A stretch of 64,000 bases of DNA from Candidatus Saccharimonadota bacterium. GTDB taxonomy: Bacteria; Patescibacteriota; Saccharimonadia; Saccharimonadales; UBA4665. The stretch is taken from positions 124,001 to 188,000 of the forward strand of contig JAGXIT010000005.1 in NCBI GenBank assembly GCA_024635495.1, written 5' to 3'. Shown in pieces: positions 608-46,215 of this stretch (positions are counted from its first letter, which is position 1; every line of letters starts with the position of its first letter). A model generated the notes under the pieces. It ran no database searches. It was given only the letters and a program-made list of their open reading frames with translations, and was not told where the DNA came from. Made by a program: the position numbers and the translations under genes.

Positions 608-1228
608 ATGAGTTTGCAGAGCGAAGGCGCGGCCTATCTCGCGGCACATGATGCCGTGCTCGCACCACTGGTGCAGCAATTCGGCACGCCCACGCCAGCA
701 GCACATGGCAATTATTATCAAGAGCTCGTCGAGAGCATCATTAGCCAGCAGCTGAGCGTGAAGGCTGGTGCGGCCATCACCCGCCGTTTTGTTGAACTAT
801 TTGGCAGCGAGTTCCCCTCACCTGCCCAAATCCTCGAGAAAGACGTCGAGACATTGCGCACCGCTGGTCTCAGCCGCGGCAAGGCGTCGTATATTCGTGA
901 TCTAGCACAGCACGTGCAGGATGGCAGTGTGAAATTCGACCACCTCGATAGCCTGTCGAATGATGAAATCATCGCTGAGCTCACTGCCGTCAAAGGCATT
1001 GGTGAGTGGACGGTGCACATGTTCCTCATGTTCTGCATGGGTCGGGCGGATGTGCTGGCCTGGGGTGATTTGGGTGTGCGCAATGGCATCAAGGCACTCT
1101 ACCGGCTCAAAGACATGCCAGACCGAGCGACAGTCGAAAAGATTGCAGCCAAAAACCACTGGCATCCGTACGAATCGTATGCCTGCTGGTACATCTGGAA
1201 ATCCCTCGACAACGAACCAAACTCATAA
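608..1228 (+). CDS. alkA: DNA-3-methyladenine glycosylase II (HhH-GPD)
   Basis: Base-excision repair enzyme that removes alkylated purines. The 206 residues contain the HhH-GPD layout: a helical start with SIISQQLS at 43-50, the helix-hairpin-helix VKGIGEWT at 128-135, and the catalytic aspartate D154 in GDLGVRNG. It lacks the N-terminal TATA-like domain of E. coli AlkA, so it resembles the short archaeal/Gram-positive type. No Fe-S cysteine cluster is present, arguing against endonuclease III or MutY. It follows the AbrB-like gene by 15 bases. Its 3' end (1156-1220) is repeated at 3001-3065 and in part near 3753-3782, flanking inserted genes. Confidence 0.85.
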   Translation: MSLQSEGAAYLAAHDAVLAPLVQQFGTPTPAAHGNYYQELVESIISQQLSVKAGAAITRRFVELFGSEFPSPAQILEKDVETLRTAGLSRGKASYIRDLAQHVQDGSVKFDHLDSLSNDEIIAELTAVKGIGEWTVHMFLMFCMGRADVLAWGDLGVRNGIKALYRLKDMPDRATVEKIAAKNHWHPYESYACWYIWKSLDNEPNS

Positions 1229-1277
1229 ATAATCCCGATATTATCCAGATCTACCCCTACGACTAATCGCAATTGGG

Positions 1278-1306
1278 TTGACGAAATAAGTTATTGGGTG
1301 TACGGT
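1278..1306 (+). promoter_or_regulatory. Candidate promoter of ATPase leader
   Basis: TTGACG at 1278-1283, a 17-base spacer, then TACGGT. The -35 is good and the -10 poor. It would give a leader of about 130 nt carrying a five-codon ORF and a hairpin before the ATPase gene. An alternative start signal (TTGGAC, 18 bases, TATTAT at 1423-1428) lies nearer the gene. Confidence 0.35.
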
Positions 1307-1365
1307 TTTAATGTAATTTAATCCCAGTTCTTGCGTATGGCACGTCGGAACAGAAGGAGCCCACC

Positions 1366-1383
1366 ATGAGTAATTCAACCTAG
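1366..1383 (+). CDS. Five-residue leader ORF (MSNST)
   Basis: ATG-AGT-AAT-TCA-ACC-TAG preceded by a strong Shine-Dalgarno AGAAGGAG (1352-1359) at a 6-nt distance. This is one of the best ribosome-binding sites in this stretch although the ORF is tiny, and it is followed within 10 bases by a terminator hairpin. That arrangement resembles attenuation leaders. It is not a proven gene. Confidence 0.35.
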   Translation: MSNST

Positions 1384-1390
1384 TCTTCTT

Positions 1391-1412
1391 TCGTCCTTTT
1401 GGACGATTTTTT
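1391..1412 (+). terminator. Rho-independent terminator or attenuator
   Basis: TCGTCC-TTTT-GGACGA forms a six-pair stem with a four-base loop, followed at once by six T residues. It sits between the mini-ORF and the ATPase gene, so it either ends the upstream transcript or attenuates the ATPase gene. Confidence 0.65.
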
Positions 1413-1443
1413 GTATTAATATTATTATTTTATGGAGACTTTT

Positions 1444-2892
1444 ATGAAAGATAACACACCTAACGCCGGCAAGCTCATCGAATCACTTAGGAGCACCGGC
1501 TATAGCAACTACTCGGCTATAGCCGATCTCGTTGATAACTCGTTGGATGCCCACGCAACGAACGTAAAAATCAAAATCGGTAACTCTACAAATAACGATT
1601 ATCTACTGACTATCAGTGATGACGGCGACGGCATGAATGAGGCCACCTTAGATCAGGCCTTACGTCTAGGTTCCGACATACCCAAAGACAACAATAGTGA
1701 TCTGGGTAAATTTGGAATGGGACTAATTACAGCTAGTATTTCTATCGGGCGCAAGCTAGTAGTCGTCACTAAACAGCACGGTCAATATCTAACGGCTATT
1801 CATGATGTAGACGAAATCATTGATAAAAAGGAATTCATAAAAGAGCTTCGCAGGTCTACAGAACAAGAAATGAATACATTCGCACTATACACCGGTGGCG
1901 CCATGCATGGTACGTTAGTATTAATCAGCAAGATCGATCATCTACAAAGCAAAAACCTGACACAGTTCACTGGTAAGTTAATGAATGACCTCGGCGAAAT
2001 CTTTAGGGAATACATAAACGCAAGCAAACACCTGTACGTAAATGATAAAGATGTCCTGGCCCGCGACCCTTTAATGCTAAATGATGTCGAAACTGACGTC
2101 ATGCTGGATGAAACGTTCGAGCTTGATATCGATGGAGATGGAGAGCCTGATGACATACGTCTGCGCATTGTCGCCTTACCAAGACTGTCCGAAACAGAAA
2201 GTGAGTCTATAAAGATCAACCAGTTTAACCAAGGCTTCTACATCATGCGCAATAACCGGCAGATCGCCCGCGCCGAAACTCTAGGAATATTTACAAAGCA
2301 CAACTACTCTAACCGGTTTAGGGCAGAGCTGTTCTTTTCTGGATCACTAGATGGAGCGCTCAGCGTGAACTTTACCAAAAATGGTATAGAGCTAAACGAT
2401 ACAGTTACTGGCTGGCTGAAACAAATGACCATGCCACAAATAACTACCATCAAGAACCAAGCCGTGAAAGCAGGAGCACGCAAAGCGAATGAAGGTAAAA
2501 CCCATAGAGGCGCTGAACGTATCGTTGAGACGAAAGGAAATGTACTACCTGATTTCAAGCCAGAAACTGTTGATGAGTCAGTCGATACAAGTTGGCGTGA
2601 GAACCATAAGAATGGCGTTGAGTTTAAGACTTCCGAGAATGGTCGCCTCGGTTCTTTGTTTGAGCACGAGTCTTACGGTCGCAAAATAACCGTCACGTAC
2701 AACATAGAGCACCCCTTTTACCAGGTATTCTTTGGAAATACTGAGAACAGCGATCTGATTGATGCTGTCGACTGCCTGGTGTATTCGATTGCTGTTGGTT
2801 TAACTAAGATAACCATAGGTCAAGACGAACAAAAACTAGCTGACATGTTCAGTGAAACTATGTCCTCTACACTACGAACTCTTTTGAACTAA
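1444..2892 (+). CDS. GHKL-type ATPase, Hsp90/MutL/MORC-like fold
   Basis: The N-terminal ATP-binding fold is clear: N box with D31-N32 in AIADLVDNSLDA (25-36), G1 box DDGDGM (59-64) and G2 box GKFGMG (88-93). The remaining 380 residues match no family I can name. An in-frame ATG at 1432 exists, but GGAG at 1434-1437 sits 6 nt before the ATG at 1444, so the latter is preferred (482 residues). The protein is soluble, with no kinase phosphoacceptor domain, so it is not an ordinary histidine kinase. It is enclosed by two copies of the alkA 3' end, so it is probably acquired. Such stand-alone ATPases often occur in defence islands, but no partner nuclease is next to it, so a defence role is only a possibility. 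Confidence 0.7.
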   Translation: MKDNTPNAGKLIESLRSTGYSNYSAIADLVDNSLDAHATNVKIKIGNSTNNDYLLTISDDGDGMNEATLDQALRLGSDIPKDNNSDLGKFGMGLITASISIGRKLVVVTKQHGQYLTAIHDVDEIIDKKEFIKELRRSTEQEMNTFALYTGGAMHGTLVLISKIDHLQSKNLTQFTGKLMNDLGEIFREYINASKHLYVNDKDVLARDPLMLNDVETDVMLDETFELDIDGDGEPDDIRLRIVALPRLSETESESIKINQFNQGFYIMRNNRQIARAETLGIFTKHNYSNRFRAELFFSGSLDGALSVNFTKNGIELNDTVTGWLKQMTMPQITTIKNQAVKAGARKANEGKTHRGAERIVETKGNVLPDFKPETVDESVDTSWRENHKNGVEFKTSENGRLGSLFEHESYGRKITVTYNIEHPFYQVFFGNTENSDLIDAVDCLVYSIAVGLTKITIGQDEQKLADMFSETMSSTLRTLLN

Positions 2893-3000
2893 AGCCAACT
2901 CGCTTAACTATGACAACCGTTACGAAGCCATAGTTAAGTGCATAGGCCATATAAACTTAAATTAAATCAACAAGCTAATCAATGCACAGAGTCTAGTGGG

Positions 3001-3079
3001 CCACTGGCACCCGTATGAATCATATGCCTGTTGGTATATTTGGAAATCCCTCGACAACGAACCAAAAATAACCGGTTAG
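3001..3079 (+). pseudogene. Displaced alkA 3' end, copy 2
   Basis: Bases 3001-3065 match 1156-1220 of alkA at 59 of 65 positions. All six differences are synonymous, so this piece evolved as coding DNA before being cut from its gene. The reading frame continues (3002-3079) to its own stop with the ending EPKITG instead of EPNS. No start or upstream gene body is present. Confidence 0.85.
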
Positions 3080-3687
3080 GCCCGAGCTCTTTTTTGCCGC
3101 TTTGAAGTATGTTTTATGCTACGTCGACTGATGATAATTGCCGTCATAGCGCCATCGAATACCGTTACATACAACGGGTAAATGAGAACGACAAAGCCTG
3201 CCTCCCCCACGGTAGCAACAGCTAGTGCGCCGGCAATAACCGACATAATCCAAGTGCTCAGCGTCTCTGTTTTTGGAGCTATCCATATCTTTGTAAGCGT
3301 GAGCCAGTATGCTGCTATGTCTACAGTCATAACAATGAGGATTGCAGCCAACGGGCTATCAGTCAGTTGCCATACCGCGATTCCTAGTCCCGCGATAAGT
3401 ATCGCTGCATAGTCACGAACAGTAAATTTGCCATAGCCGTATCGTAACGAAAGAACTGCAATAATGAGCAGGCTAATCGCTTCTCCGATCGTGAGTCCCA
3501 GCGACCAGGTAGCTCCGGCATCCCACTGAGCCCCTAAGAATACGAGACTGAGTACCGCCCAAATCCACCATGTAGCACGCTCTGGCTTTGTTTTACCGCG
3601 TAAAATATCTCGTACGTACGGGAACATACTAAAGAAACTGAGCAATCCAGCAGTAACCCCAAGTATGGCAAGTGTTTGTTCGTTCAT
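3076..3687 (-). CDS. Multi-pass membrane protein, PQ-loop-like
   Basis: A 203-residue protein with about seven predicted membrane segments. The first part (SMFPYVRDILRGKTKPE, about 20-36, then TWWIWAVLS) resembles PQ-loop/SemiSWEET transporters, where a proline-containing helix is followed by a short loop and a tryptophan-rich helix. The C terminus is strongly basic. It runs opposite to its neighbours and fills the gap between the second and third alkA tails; its stop codon overlaps the stop of tail 2. Substrate unknown; the family call is tentative. Confidence 0.5.
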   Translation of the reverse strand: MNEQTLAILGVTAGLLSFFSMFPYVRDILRGKTKPERATWWIWAVLSLVFLGAQWDAGATWSLGLTIGEAISLLIIAVLSLRYGYGKFTVRDYAAILIAGLGIAVWQLTDSPLAAILIVMTVDIAAYWLTLTKIWIAPKTETLSTWIMSVIAGALAVATVGEAGFVVLIYPLYVTVFDGAMTAIIISRRSIKHTSKRQKRARA

Positions 3688-3740
3688 CTGTCGGTGATTG
3701 TACTGGAAATCACTGCAACGAAGAAGAGCTTACTTTTCTC

Positions 3741-3796
3741 AGGCCGTCTAGGACATCTGGAAATCGCTCGACAACGAACCAATCCTTCAATCATAA
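3741..3796 (+). pseudogene. Displaced alkA 3' end, copy 3
   Basis: Bases 3753-3782 match alkA 1191-1220 at 29 of 30 positions, the one change being synonymous (TCC to TCG). Similarity fades upstream to about 3741. The frame runs to a TAA at 3794-3796 with the ending EPILQS, a third distinct C terminus. Confidence 0.75.
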
Positions 3797-10869: not shown

Positions 10870-11030
10870 TAAAAAACCGCCACCGAATCGGTGACGCTTA
10901 TAAGAGTCAGTACCTGCTCGGGTATTACGCGTATGGCATAAAGATCTGACTTACCTGACTTACTGACAGGTTCACAGTTGCGGCACAGTGTCGGATTTTC
11001 ACCGAACTTCCAGTATGCAATACGATTTAA
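10870..11030 (-). promoter_or_regulatory. Cobalamin riboswitch
   Basis: On the minus strand the conserved core is nearly complete: GGAAGTTCGGTGAAAATCCG, then ACACTGTGCCGCAACTGTGA (core about 10972-11010). A divergent B12-box-like segment (GTCAG...ATGCC) follows, then a terminator hairpin 40 bases before the DUF4430-like gene. Binding of cobalamin would be expected to favour termination and shut off the two uptake genes. The exact 5' boundary is uncertain. Confidence 0.85.
10871..10898 (-). terminator. Riboswitch expression-platform terminator
   Basis: Minus strand CACCG-ATT-CGGTG extended by three further pairs (eight in all, one a G-T), followed by six T residues. It lies between the riboswitch core and the DUF4430-like gene. 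Confidence 0.8.
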
Positions 11031-11085
11031 TTGTTAATGCATTTAGAGCATAACATAGCTCTAGCTACGCTAGATATAGTAATTT

Positions 11086-41544: not shown

Positions 41545-42570
41545 ATGAGAAAGTCGACGCAAAAGCCTGTTGTAGTTATTCCTAACTTGAATGGTGGAGA
41601 GGCGCTTTTGGCTGCCATCGAATCACTCGAGAAGCAAACGCTCAAGCCGCACATCATCGTCGTAGACAATGCTAGCACTGACGGCTCGGGGCAAAAAGCA
41701 CAAGCTAAACACCCTGAGGTTGAACTCATCTGGCACAAACGCAACAAAGGCTACGCGGGTGGAGTGAACCCGGGTTTCAAGCGCGCAATCGAGCTGGAGG
41801 CAGATTATGTTGCACCGTTTAATGACGATGCCGTAGCTGACAAAGATTGGCTCAGGCATCTTGTGGCCTTCATGGAAAACAACCCAGAATATGGCTCGGT
41901 GAGCTGCAAGGTGCTCAAAGACGACGGCAAGCATATCGACAGCACTGGCGATTTCCTAACTATCTGGGGTTTGCCCTACCCCCGCGGTCGCGACGAAGTA
42001 GATGAGGGTCAATATGACAACCTAACAGAGATATTCGCCGCCAGCGGCGCCGCCAGCCTCTACCGCGTCGAGACGCTCAAGCAAGTCGGCTTGCTCGACG
42101 AAGCATTTTTCGCCTACTACGAAGATGTCGATCTCGGATTCCGCATGCAAAACCAGGGCTGGAAGGTTGGCTTTGTACCCGAAGCCAAGGTGTATCATGC
42201 CATCGGTATGACGAGTGGCCGCATGAAGGGTTTCACTACCTACCACGCTGCGAAGAACCAGCCATTACTTCTCTGGAAGAACCTACCATTTTCTTTGCTC
42301 TTCCGGGTACTACCTAGATTCTATCTCGCCTACAGCCTTGCATTTGCTCGGGCATTCACCAGGGGCCACGGCTGGTACGCGAGCAAAGGGCTCATTATGT
42401 CAGTGGTGTTACTTTTCTGGAAGTTGCCAGAGATTGCGCTGCTTGATATGCGCCGCACACTCAAAGCACGCGAGGTGCGAGCACTCCTCGTCAACGACTT
42501 GCCACCCAACGCCAAAGCACTTCGGGCTTTGCGCAAAAAGTGGTGGAAGCTAAGGAGGAAAACTGTATGA
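41545..42570 (+). CDS. Glycosyltransferase family 2, rhamnosyltransferase-like
   Basis: 341 residues: VVVIPNLNGGEALLAAIESL, VVDNASTDGS, VAPFNDDAVADKDWL (DDA in the DxD position), AFFAYYEDVDLGFRM. Resembles WbbL-type rhamnosyltransferases. A C-terminal membrane-associated part (about 245-300) is present. AAGGTGAG lies 6 bases before the ATG. The region is richer in GC than the preceding 13 kb, marking the end of the AT-rich island. Confidence 0.85.
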   Translation: MRKSTQKPVVVIPNLNGGEALLAAIESLEKQTLKPHIIVVDNASTDGSGQKAQAKHPEVELIWHKRNKGYAGGVNPGFKRAIELEADYVAPFNDDAVADKDWLRHLVAFMENNPEYGSVSCKVLKDDGKHIDSTGDFLTIWGLPYPRGRDEVDEGQYDNLTEIFAASGAASLYRVETLKQVGLLDEAFFAYYEDVDLGFRMQNQGWKVGFVPEAKVYHAIGMTSGRMKGFTTYHAAKNQPLLLWKNLPFSLLFRVLPRFYLAYSLAFARAFTRGHGWYASKGLIMSVVLLFWKLPEIALLDMRRTLKAREVRALLVNDLPPNAKALRALRKKWWKLRRKTV

Positions 42571-43655
42571 GACATATAGTGATTGATGCGAGAAGTATCG
42601 GTGGATCGACGGGGCGCTACGTCGAGCGGCTCCTGCACTACCTGCAGCAGCTGGACGCCGAGAACAAGTACAGCGTGCTGATTTATCCAAAAGACCTCGC
42701 CAAATGGGCGCCATCAAGCAAGAACTTCGCCAAAGTGACCTGCCCGCACAAAGAGTTTACCTTCGACGAGCAGCTCGGCCTCCGCAAGCAGCTAAAAGGG
42801 CTCAAGCCAGACCTCATCCACTTCACTATGGTGCAGCAGCCTATTCTCTATCGTGGCACCGTGGTCACGACCATGCAGGATCTCACCACCGTCCGCTTCC
42901 TCGACCCGACCAAAAACCAAGTCATATATACCATCAAGCAGCAGGTATACAAATGGCTCAACAAGCGAGTTGCCCACAAATCTGCCCACATCATCACACC
43001 GACGGAGTTTGTGCGAGAAGATGTCGCCCACTACACGGGCATCTCGACAGACAAGATTACCGTGACACTCGAGAGTGCCGATGAGCTGCCAAAAGGTGCT
43101 GAACCTATCAAGGAGCTCGAGGGCGGCGAATTCATCATGTACGTCGGTCGGCCGACACCGCACAAAAATCTAGAGCGTCTCATCGATAGCTTCGTCGAGC
43201 TCAAAAAGACGCGTCCCGAGCTCAAGCTCGTCCTAGCCGGCAAACTCGACGCTAACTATGCGAGCCATGCTGAGCGCGTTGAGCGCGAAGGTATCAATGA
43301 CGTCATATTCACTGGTTTTATCCCTGATGCGCAGCTACGCTGGCTGTACGAGCACTGTGCGGCATATATATTCCCATCACTGAGCGAAGGCTTCGGTTTG
43401 CCGGGGCTTGAGGCGATGCGCTGCAAAGCGCCAGTCGTCAGCAGTAATGCGACGTGCTTGCCAGAAGTCTACGGCGATGCGGCGCATTATTTCGATCCAC
43501 TCGATGTCGCCGACATGGCGCGCGCAATCGACAAGGTGCTGACCGACGCCCAGCTCCGCGCCAAGCTCATCGCGGCTGGCACGAAGCAGGTTGAGAAGTA
43601 CTCATGGAAGCGTATGGCCGAGCAAACGCTCGCCGTTTACAAAAAAGTTTTGTAA
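42567..43655 (+). CDS. Glycosyltransferase family 4
   Basis: 362 residues: DARSIGGSTGRYVERLL at the start, YVGRPTPHKNLERLIDSF, FTGFIPDAQLRWLYEHC, and the donor motif FPSLSEGFGLPGLEAMRC with the catalytic glutamate. Start ATG overlaps the previous stop (ATGA) with AAGGAGG 9 bases upstream, so the longer open frame from 42540 is not used. Mannosyltransferase-like. Confidence 0.87.
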   Translation: MRHIVIDARSIGGSTGRYVERLLHYLQQLDAENKYSVLIYPKDLAKWAPSSKNFAKVTCPHKEFTFDEQLGLRKQLKGLKPDLIHFTMVQQPILYRGTVVTTMQDLTTVRFLDPTKNQVIYTIKQQVYKWLNKRVAHKSAHIITPTEFVREDVAHYTGISTDKITVTLESADELPKGAEPIKELEGGEFIMYVGRPTPHKNLERLIDSFVELKKTRPELKLVLAGKLDANYASHAERVEREGINDVIFTGFIPDAQLRWLYEHCAAYIFPSLSEGFGLPGLEAMRCKAPVVSSNATCLPEVYGDAAHYFDPLDVADMARAIDKVLTDAQLRAKLIAAGTKQVEKYSWKRMAEQTLAVYKKVL

Positions 43656-43714: not shown

Positions 43715-43741
43715 CTTTACTTTAGAAATATTTAGGTTTCA

Positions 43742-43771
43742 ATAAAAAACACCCCCGGTAAAAGGAGTGTT
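43742..43771 (-). terminator. Terminator of the DUF3800-like gene
   Basis: Minus strand AACACTCC...GGGGTGTT (eight pairs with one G-T), followed by a T-rich run of TTTTTTATT. It lies 120 bases past the DUF3800-like stop codon. Confidence 0.7.
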
Positions 43772-43889
43772 CCAAGATAGCCGACGTATTTATAATACGT
43801 TTAATCTTACGATCGGTTTTACCTTGTAAACAGTGCATAAATGCCTGTGACCTAATGTTATCACTTGCGTAGAACAATGGTCAAGCTGC

Positions 43890-44594
43890 CTATGGTAATC
43901 GAACTATGTGTAATTTTTGTAATTGTCGCAATTCCGGCAATGAAAAATTAAAACTTGTATACATTCTATTAGCTAGTATGTCGGAAGCCTGTATAAGGTA
44001 GTTGCCTGCTGAATCGCAGAACTTTACTTTTATATCAACCTGTCCCGTAAAAAGCGGAGGATGAAATGATCCATAGTCAAGATTATGAATACCATTTACA
44101 AACTCTTCCCTTATAGATTCTTCTAGATTGTAAAAACCATCGCTTGACGTATGTTGTTCATCAATAAATATGTTGAGTCCCGTATGCTTAGAGGCGTCAA
44201 TATGACCAGTATTTACAAGTGCTTCGAGCTTGCGTTTTATCATAATTTTAAGAGCATAATCTTTGTAACGATGTATTGATAGTTTATTGACCATAATTGA
44301 TGGTTTTATGCTTGGCAAGGTAATGACACATGCTAAACTCTCGTAGTTTTTCAATACTTTAACGAGAGCACGCTTATGTTTCGTCCCCGTTAAGTGCGTT
44401 GCTTTAAGCTCGCCGGTATGATTAATTTCCTTGCGAATATTATCCGATAATGTTCTATACTCGCGGTTTGCGTCATCCCTAACCAAATCTCCTACAAAAA
44501 CATATCCTGCATAAACGAAATACTTATCTTGACCCTCAGCGAATACTCCAGAATCATCCAAGAATACGTTTATTATCTGTTTTTCCTCATTCAC
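43890..44594 (-). CDS. DUF3800-like protein
   Basis: 234 residues. N-terminal FLDDSG (11-16), central FIDEQ (about 145) and late IQASDILANRMY match the DUF3800 family, which has an RNase H-like fold with conserved acidic residues. GTG start 9 bases after an extended -10. AT-rich, alone between a glycosyltransferase and the origin region, with its own promoter and terminator, as for an acquired gene. Family members occur in mobile and defence contexts; the function is unknown. Confidence 0.7.
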   Translation of the reverse strand: MNEEKQIINVFLDDSGVFAEGQDKYFVYAGYVFVGDLVRDDANREYRTLSDNIRKEINHTGELKATHLTGTKHKRALVKVLKNYESLACVITLPSIKPSIMVNKLSIHRYKDYALKIMIKRKLEALVNTGHIDASKHTGLNIFIDEQHTSSDGFYNLEESIREEFVNGIHNLDYGSFHPPLFTGQVDIKVKFCDSAGNYLIQASDILANRMYTSFNFSLPELRQLQKLHIVRLP

Positions 44595-44699: not shown

Positions 44700-44750
44700 C
44701 TATTCCTCGGCGGGTTTCAGGACGACGCGGCGGTCGCGGCCCTCGCCTGC
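44700..44750 (-). pseudogene. Displaced jag 3' end
   Basis: Bases 44701-44750 match 45746-45795 of jag at 48 of 50 positions. In the jag frame it reads AGEGRDRRVVLKPAEE-stop (TAG instead of TAA). It abuts the yvcK stop codon with a single base between them. No other part of jag is present. Confidence 0.88.
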
Positions 44751-44751
44751 A

Positions 44752-45741
44752 CTATTCATTCTCGAGTAAATCGGCGATGGCGGCTTTGACGCGCTGTGGG
44801 TCGTGGCGAATAAGAGTTCTTCGTATCGTCGTGTCGGCTGGATCTTGAGCGGTTATCTCTTTATTTACGAGTTGCCCTGCTACTATTTTTGCCTTGATTT
44901 TTGCAAGTCGCTTCGTCTCGATATCAACTGGGAATTCTCCGTCTGCTGCATACCGCTTGAGTAACTGGCTCGCAATCGGCTGATTATTGTACAAGACTGT
45001 GTCGATACGATTCTCGCCGATGTAGTGCTCCATGGCTTCTATGTAGTCAATGACATGCCAGCCGTCTGTCTGTGTTGGCTTATTCACAAGGTTTGCGACC
45101 ATAACTAGCTGACCCCTTGCCTGTTGTAGCGTCTCTCGCATATCTGGGACTGAAAAAATGGGCAGGAGGGATGTATAGAGGCTGCCGGGTGAAATCACAA
45201 TCATATCGGCTTCAGTTATTGCCTTTTTTGCCCGTGGATTGAGTGCGCTAACCGGAGTAAGTCGCACGCTTATGTTTTTGGTTTGTATGTGATAATCATC
45301 GATTCTATGCTCTCCGGTGACGACCATGTCCCCATCGGTGAGTTCAAGCGTATGGTTACCCAGCACCACCGGGAGGACTTCTCCGCGAATACGCAAAATA
45401 GTCGATGCTACTTCGACAGCCTTTTCGAAACTGCCTTGCTGGAGCTCTAACCCCGACAAGATAAGATTGCCAAGCGACTGTCCTTCGAACCGCCCTTCGG
45501 CGAATCGATAGTCAAATAGCTCTCGGATCTCGGGTGTTTCGCTGAGCGCGACGAGACACTGGCGAGCGTCGCCGGGTGGCAACACGCCAAGTTCATCACG
45601 CAAGACGCCGCTAGAACCACCATCGTCACACATATTTACCACCGCTGTTATGTGCGGTGTGAGCTCCTTGAGCGACTGTAGTATCGTGAAGCTGCCGGTG
45701 CCTCCACCGATTACGACAAGTTTAGGTGGCTGCATGGCCAT
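44752..45741 (-). CDS. yvcK: YvcK/CofD-like protein
   Basis: 329 residues of the UPF0052/CofD-like family: VVIGGGTGSFTILQSL (9-24), NMCDDGGSSGVLRDELG, PPGDARQCL, GNLILSGLE, VISPGSLYTSLLP. Family members bind UDP-sugars and are needed for cell shape and growth on gluconeogenic carbon in Bacillus. The start lies 4 bases after the jag stop and its ribosome site (GAGGAA) is inside the jag end. The gene is bracketed exactly by the intact jag end and a displaced jag end, so it seems to have been inserted as a one-gene unit. Confidence 0.87.
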   Translation of the reverse strand: MAMQPPKLVVIGGGTGSFTILQSLKELTPHITAVVNMCDDGGSSGVLRDELGVLPPGDARQCLVALSETPEIRELFDYRFAEGRFEGQSLGNLILSGLELQQGSFEKAVEVASTILRIRGEVLPVVLGNHTLELTDGDMVVTGEHRIDDYHIQTKNISVRLTPVSALNPRAKKAITEADMIVISPGSLYTSLLPIFSVPDMRETLQQARGQLVMVANLVNKPTQTDGWHVIDYIEAMEHYIGENRIDTVLYNNQPIASQLLKRYAADGEFPVDIETKRLAKIKAKIVAGQLVNKEITAQDPADTTIRRTLIRHDPQRVKAAIADLLENE

Positions 45742-45744
45742 AGT

Positions 45745-46215
45745 TTATTCCTCGGCGGGTTTCAGGACGACGTGGCGGTCTCGGCCCTCGCCTGCTGAGT
45801 CGCTGGCTAGTCCAGCATCACCAGCGACACGGTGTATCGTGCGGCGGTCTGCGGCATTCATAGGGTTGAGTGCGTATGGTTCGCCCGTGTCTTTGACCTT
45901 CTTGATCCACTCCTGGGCAGTTTCGGCGAGATGGTCTGCGCGCTGCTTCTTGTAGTCTGCAACATCTACGTTCACGCGGTTGTGTGTGAAGTTTTGGTTC
46001 TTAAGCGCATTGCTCACGAGGAATTGGAGCGCCCGGACGGTGTCGCCATGCTGGCCAATCAAAAAGCCGTTCATGTGCGTCGAGGGAACATTCACCTCTA
46101 TCACCTCTTCGTCTTCGCTCGTCGCGTAGACATCAGTATTAAGCCCAAAAAACGAGAGCAAGTCCTCTATGTATTTCTTGGTGTATAGGATTGCGTCTTC
46201 GAGTGATTCGTTCAT
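45745..46215 (-). CDS. jag: Jag/KhpB-like KH-R3H RNA-binding protein
   Basis: 156 residues. KH-II domain (about 30-95) with GFLIGQHGDTVRAL, then an R3H domain (about 95-150) with ADRRTIHRVAGD. The Jag-N domain found in Bacillus and Streptococcus homologues is absent, so this is the short form. It follows yidC by 5 bases in the usual rpmH-rnpA-yidC-jag order. Its last 50 bases are repeated past yvcK. Confidence 0.88.
   Translation of the reverse strand: MNESLEDAILYTKKYIEDLLSFFGLNTDVYATSEDEEVIEVNVPSTHMNGFLIGQHGDTVRALQFLVSNALKNQNFTHNRVNVDVADYKKQRADHLAETAQEWIKKVKDTGEPYALNPMNAADRRTIHRVAGDAGLASDSAGEGRDRHVVLKPAEE

Follow-up and report, generated by a model that had tools for sequence, protein, structure and literature searches.

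In the genome of a Candidatus Saccharimonadota bacterium (assembly GCA_024635495.1, here G000), the end of jag occurs a second time behind the neighbouring gene yvcK, and this jag–yvcK–tail arrangement is best read as an instance of an already known type of event rather than as a novel single-gene cassette. On balance, it seems likely that the layout is a recombination scar, in which two haplotypes of the region downstream of jag were fused. The DNA analysed, referred to as the window, is a stretch of 64,000 nt from contig JAGXIT010000005.1, and the features of the locus are collected in Table 1. The assembly consists of 5 contigs and is 99.8% complete and 0.4% contaminated.

Table 1. Features at and behind jag, in window coordinates
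Feature	Position	Strand	Evidence
jag (KhpB/EloR-type R3H protein), intact	45745..46215	-	Pfam R3H and KH_KhpA-B; NCBIfam Jag_EloR below cut-off
yvcK (glmR/CofD-like), intact, 3 nt behind jag	44752..45741	-	Pfam CofD, 2.7e-79; TIGR01826 above cut-off
Stranded jag-end copy with its own stop	44700..44750	-	48/51 identical to 45745-45795
DUF3800 gene, AT-rich, behind the stranded jag tail	43890..44594	-	Pfam DUF3800, 2.6e-15
DUF3800-I RNA, directly after the DUF3800 gene	43737..43855	-	Rfam RF02969, 87.2 bits (cut-off 44.2)
Convergent glycosyltransferase, far edge of the variable gap	42540..43655	+	Pfam Glycos_transf_1

The sequence confirmed the order given in the original prediction: jag, three bases, yvcK, one base and a jag end carrying a stop codon of its own. 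On the minus strand, the jag stop codon (45745-45747) and the yvcK ATG at 45741 are separated by a 3-base spacer, and the single base 44751 lies between the yvcK stop codon (44752-44754) and the copy, which corresponds to the final 51 nt of jag. With the stop codon counted in, the two segments are identical at 48 of 51 positions (blastn, 96% over 50 nt, E = 1e-14). The best other ungapped match to the jag-end 51-mer, on both strands of 256 kb of contig, reached 30/51, so the repeat is not due to chance and the tail is indeed a genuine displaced gene end. When the whole genome was searched with the copy, only two places were found, the jag end and the copy itself. The direct repeats lie 1045 nt apart, with yvcK as the sole gene between them. 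Truncation of yvcK by the junction was ruled out, as its C-terminus has the usual length.

Three differences distinguish the copy from jag, namely CGA>CGC (Arg, silent), CAC>CGC (His>Arg) and TAA>TAG (stop, silent), and an arginine at the second of these positions is also found in the jag of G065, a genome of another genus. All three are compatible with a working jag end, and the displaced copy is thus a plausible one. Within the repeated jag end, GAGGA stands 7 nt ahead of the yvcK ATG; co-translation of yvcK from the jag end is probable, with GAGGA as the predicted ribosome site. The stranded tail itself is most likely without function. A 19-codon frame opens at an ATG that overlaps the stop of yvcK (ATGAATAG), runs across the tail (MNSAGEGRDRRVVLKPAEE) and is probably without meaning.

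We searched 93 genomes of the family, relatives here meaning Saccharibacteria, and detected jag in 66 and yvcK in 45 of them. yvcK is therefore accessory in this family and not the core-type gene that it had been taken for. Among the congeners, the jag locus could be read in five (G017, G018, G020, G021 and G022), and G019 gave no jag match. yvcK follows jag directly, with no tail copy, in two of these five, G018 and G020, and also in G065. In G017, G021 and G022 jag is followed by a large gene of surface type that carries a GDSL domain, and yvcK is absent; in G018 and G020 a large gene related to this one comes after jag and yvcK. The order in G000 is jag, yvcK, jag tail, DUF3800 gene and glycosyltransferase. 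The congeners have one jag end each, but are themselves only about 75% identical and carry differing genes behind jag. The pairing of jag with yvcK is patchy across the family.

In the yvcK tree, G000 and G020 are sisters with a support of 98/84. Monophyly of all four jag-adjacent yvcK genes was supported at 90/94 in the first tree, but once three taxa had been added it was neither established nor rejected (AU p 0.43). For YidC, G000 is sister to G021, a genome without yvcK. The tail-less pairs in G018, G020 and G065, together with the sisterhood of the G000 and G020 yvcK genes, indicate that the jag–yvcK pair is older than the jag-tail copy and separate from it. The same observations speak against the claim that yvcK was inserted as an exact single-gene cassette. 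The prediction had named yvcK in this place in all relatives, with no tail, as one finding that would refute it; the missing tail was indeed found in three of the four jag–yvcK genomes, but yvcK is not there in all relatives, as three congeners lack it.

No stranded jag end was seen in the relatives among 60 jag loci examined, and G000 alone has one. Either G000 copy is identical to the jag end of any other genome at 43 of 51 positions at most, and the two are thus far nearer to each other than to the rest, from which it follows that the duplication event is recent. The jag tail is specific to G000. Composition, considered as proof of a recent import of yvcK, was uninformative, with codon usage at the 39th percentile. 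High GC3 was found in jag, the glycosyltransferase and alkA and might be a sign of import, but the GC3 of jag varies equally among the congeners. In G107 (L242 1211-1333), an inverted yvcK fragment of about 100 nt lies just upstream of an intact yvcK.

The GC content of the DUF3800 gene, 0.363, is the minimum among the 205 genes of the contig, and within the family this gene has a relative in G018 only. There, the pair of DUF3800 gene and DUF3800-I RNA recurs at an unrelated place (L264 9046-9919), which gives it the look of a travelling module; we regard the module as foreign-looking. The end of the glycosyltransferase lies at most 150 bp from the jag stop in 31 of the 60 jag loci of the relatives, and in the others 0.2 to 7 kb separate the two genes. 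The gap between jag and the glycosyltransferase is a variable site across the family. Around the DUF3800 gene, neither a third jag tail nor a copy of the glycosyltransferase end was present, just a 14-nt match slightly above shuffled sequences, and in the stretches of G000 that were read, nothing was left of the surface-type gene that stands behind jag in congeners. Elsewhere in the window, positions 10908-11038 (minus strand) match the AdoCbl (cobalamin) riboswitch family at 62 bits.

A scan for stranded gene ends covered 1.66 Mb and 1628 ORFs and yielded three stranded 3' ends, all in G000, one of jag and two of alkA. For 5' ends no equivalent pattern was seen, one contig-edge case excepted. 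G000 was read in stretches amounting to about 586 kb of 820 kb, and further scars may exist. At the alkA locus (window 608-3783, plus strand), alkA is followed by a gene for an MzaB-like HSP90-type ATPase and a 66-nt alkA tail, and beyond this by a 203-aa gene on the opposite strand and a third tail of 30 nt. All six codon differences in the 66-nt tail are silent, with a chance of about 5e-5, and the locus can be upheld as a related case, as had been proposed. In addition, the final 45 nt of a uvrD/pcrA helicase gene are repeated 131 nt downstream (L244 3165-3340, contig C2 of G000); here the copies differ in one Leu codon alone, at two of its bases (CTA/TTG). Since the alkA and uvrD differences are silent, the copies at these loci evolved as functional gene ends in separate lineages, and DNA of a relative was therefore involved. 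For the jag tail alone the silent-change test is weak, with two of three differences silent (p about 0.2). The exact fit of the cargo, 1 nt from the tail at jag and yvcK, did not hold as a rule, as cargo and tail stand 108 nt apart at alkA and the uvrD tails enclose 86 nt without any gene.

The scar could have arisen as follows. Two haplotypes behind jag would have existed among close relatives, one with the jag–yvcK arrangement found elsewhere in the genus, the other with jag followed by the DUF3800 gene, the DUF3800-I RNA and the glycosyltransferase. During uptake of a relative's DNA, homologous pairing would have taken place at one end, and the other end would have been joined without homology, the end of yvcK being linked illegitimately to the other jag 51 nt ahead of its stop. 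The product would be jag, yvcK, the stranded jag end and the DUF3800 gene, with the second jag end left over. We infer the two-haplotype origin for jag itself, the uptake by competence and the order of events. The scar reading is favoured by the tail-less jag–yvcK pairs, the sister yvcK genes of G000 and G020 and the tail being unique among 60 jag loci, by the closeness of the two G000 copies and by differences that suit a working jag end, and also by the low-GC DUF3800 gene, the recurrence of its pair with the RNA in G018, the variable gap before the glycosyltransferase and the alkA and uvrD tails, which indicate two alleles. Saccharibacteria are naturally transformable via comEC (PMC10633639), and matches to comEC and recA above the cut-off show that genes for uptake and recombination are present in G000. 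A point against the scar is that homology-facilitated illegitimate recombination deletes more often than it duplicates (PMC3240628). The join merely 1 nt past the yvcK stop also counts against it, as a mild coincidence.

The tail may instead have been made within G000, with jag–yvcK passed down as a pair and the terminal 51 nt of jag copied behind yvcK, for example by template switching in repair or by tandem duplication of jag and yvcK and subsequent deletion, with the three differences as later mutations. This agrees with the presence of the pair in congeners and with copies that differ at three sites only, one of them changing an amino acid, so the tail need not be of foreign origin. However, silent differences only, as in the alkA and uvrD tails, would be unexpected for decaying copies, and the jag tail adjoins the foreign-looking DUF3800 module; we therefore consider such local copying unlikely, if still the foremost of the alternatives. 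A merging of two strain variants of the jag region into one contig during assembly might account for several such scars in the single genome G000, but the copies are 1045 nt apart and the join has no shared sequence, unlike a false overlap, and the genome is nearly complete in few contigs with little contamination, which makes an artefact very improbable.

We also doubt that yvcK and the jag tail entered as one mobile unit by site-specific or tail-to-tail recombination, with the tail as attachment site. The geometry of gene, cargo and tail does resemble that of elements integrating at gene ends, alkA shows the same geometry twice in succession, and yvcK stops 1 nt before the tail. On the other hand, three relatives carry jag and yvcK without a tail, and the search for the jag-tail pattern in viral contigs gave no match. 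The segments enclosed by the copies at jag and at alkA contained no integrase gene, and the only tyrosine-recombinase match of the genome lies on another contig. This, together with the varying length (30-66 nt), spacing and cargo of the tails, argues against a fixed attachment site. Very little probability is likewise given to the reading in which cassettes of a single gene plus a host 3' end spread among Saccharibacteria strains by tail recombination without a dedicated integrase, each directed by its tail to the matching gene, so that housekeeping genes such as jag and alkA serve as landing sites.

The nearest known counterpart is a class named from Helicobacter pylori, insertion with long, variable target duplication (Nobusato et al. 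2000, cited in PMC1643837 and PMC3031569). As the citing papers describe it, the class came to light when related genomes of a naturally transformable species were compared, and it has, as here, one or a few genes between long direct repeats of variable length at specific sites. In G000, too, a long direct repeat derived from the target stands on either side of the insert, and the repeat length varies (30, 45, 51 and 66 nt). The H. pylori cargo, in the same descriptions, consists mostly of restriction-modification genes, whereas here it is yvcK, or the MzaB-like ATPase gene at alkA; also unlike that class as described there, a housekeeping gene supplies the repeat with its 3' end, and the event is read from one genome, not from comparison with a pre-insertion strain. 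The jag–yvcK–tail layout may best be filed as a further example of this class in which a gene end forms the repeat.

In homology-facilitated illegitimate recombination during transformation, one homologous and one non-homologous join, the latter at a microhomology of 3-10 bp, place foreign DNA beside the anchor, and a single-crossover variant yielded partial gene duplications of 109-950 bp (PMC3240628). The classic product is accompanied by a deletion of similar size, whereas here the anchor end is kept twice. A similar mechanism has been proposed for type VI arrays of Vibrio with displaced ends of effector and immunity genes (PMC5361080). There, new material beside the anchor shifts the old gene end downstream and leaves strings of orphan 3' ends, comparable with alkA, but the anchor is a variable effector gene, while the anchors here are housekeeping genes that remain intact. 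Genomic islands inserted at gene 3' ends by tyrosine recombinases also duplicate the host gene end and leave the gene intact. The jag–yvcK unit differs from them in having a single-gene cargo, no integrase and no constant core, the tail differing in sequence and length from locus to locus.

If the scar reading is right, stranded gene ends would be a readable record of single-gene gain from close relatives in streamlined epibiotic bacteria, in which the tails mark the joins and silent differences in them reveal the meeting of two alleles. A scan for stranded 3' ends could then map recent gene gain across Patescibacteria.

Two further duplications were noticed. On contig C5 of G000 (L254 7261-10189), a 91-nt repeat lies directly behind a kwaB-like gene, with its second copy 6 nt behind a PIF1-like helicase gene. 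In the sister genome G021 (L271 15400-17721), the dnaJ promoter and gene head are duplicated around two genes of unknown family that lie between dnaK and dnaJ; five of the seven codon differences in the head are silent.
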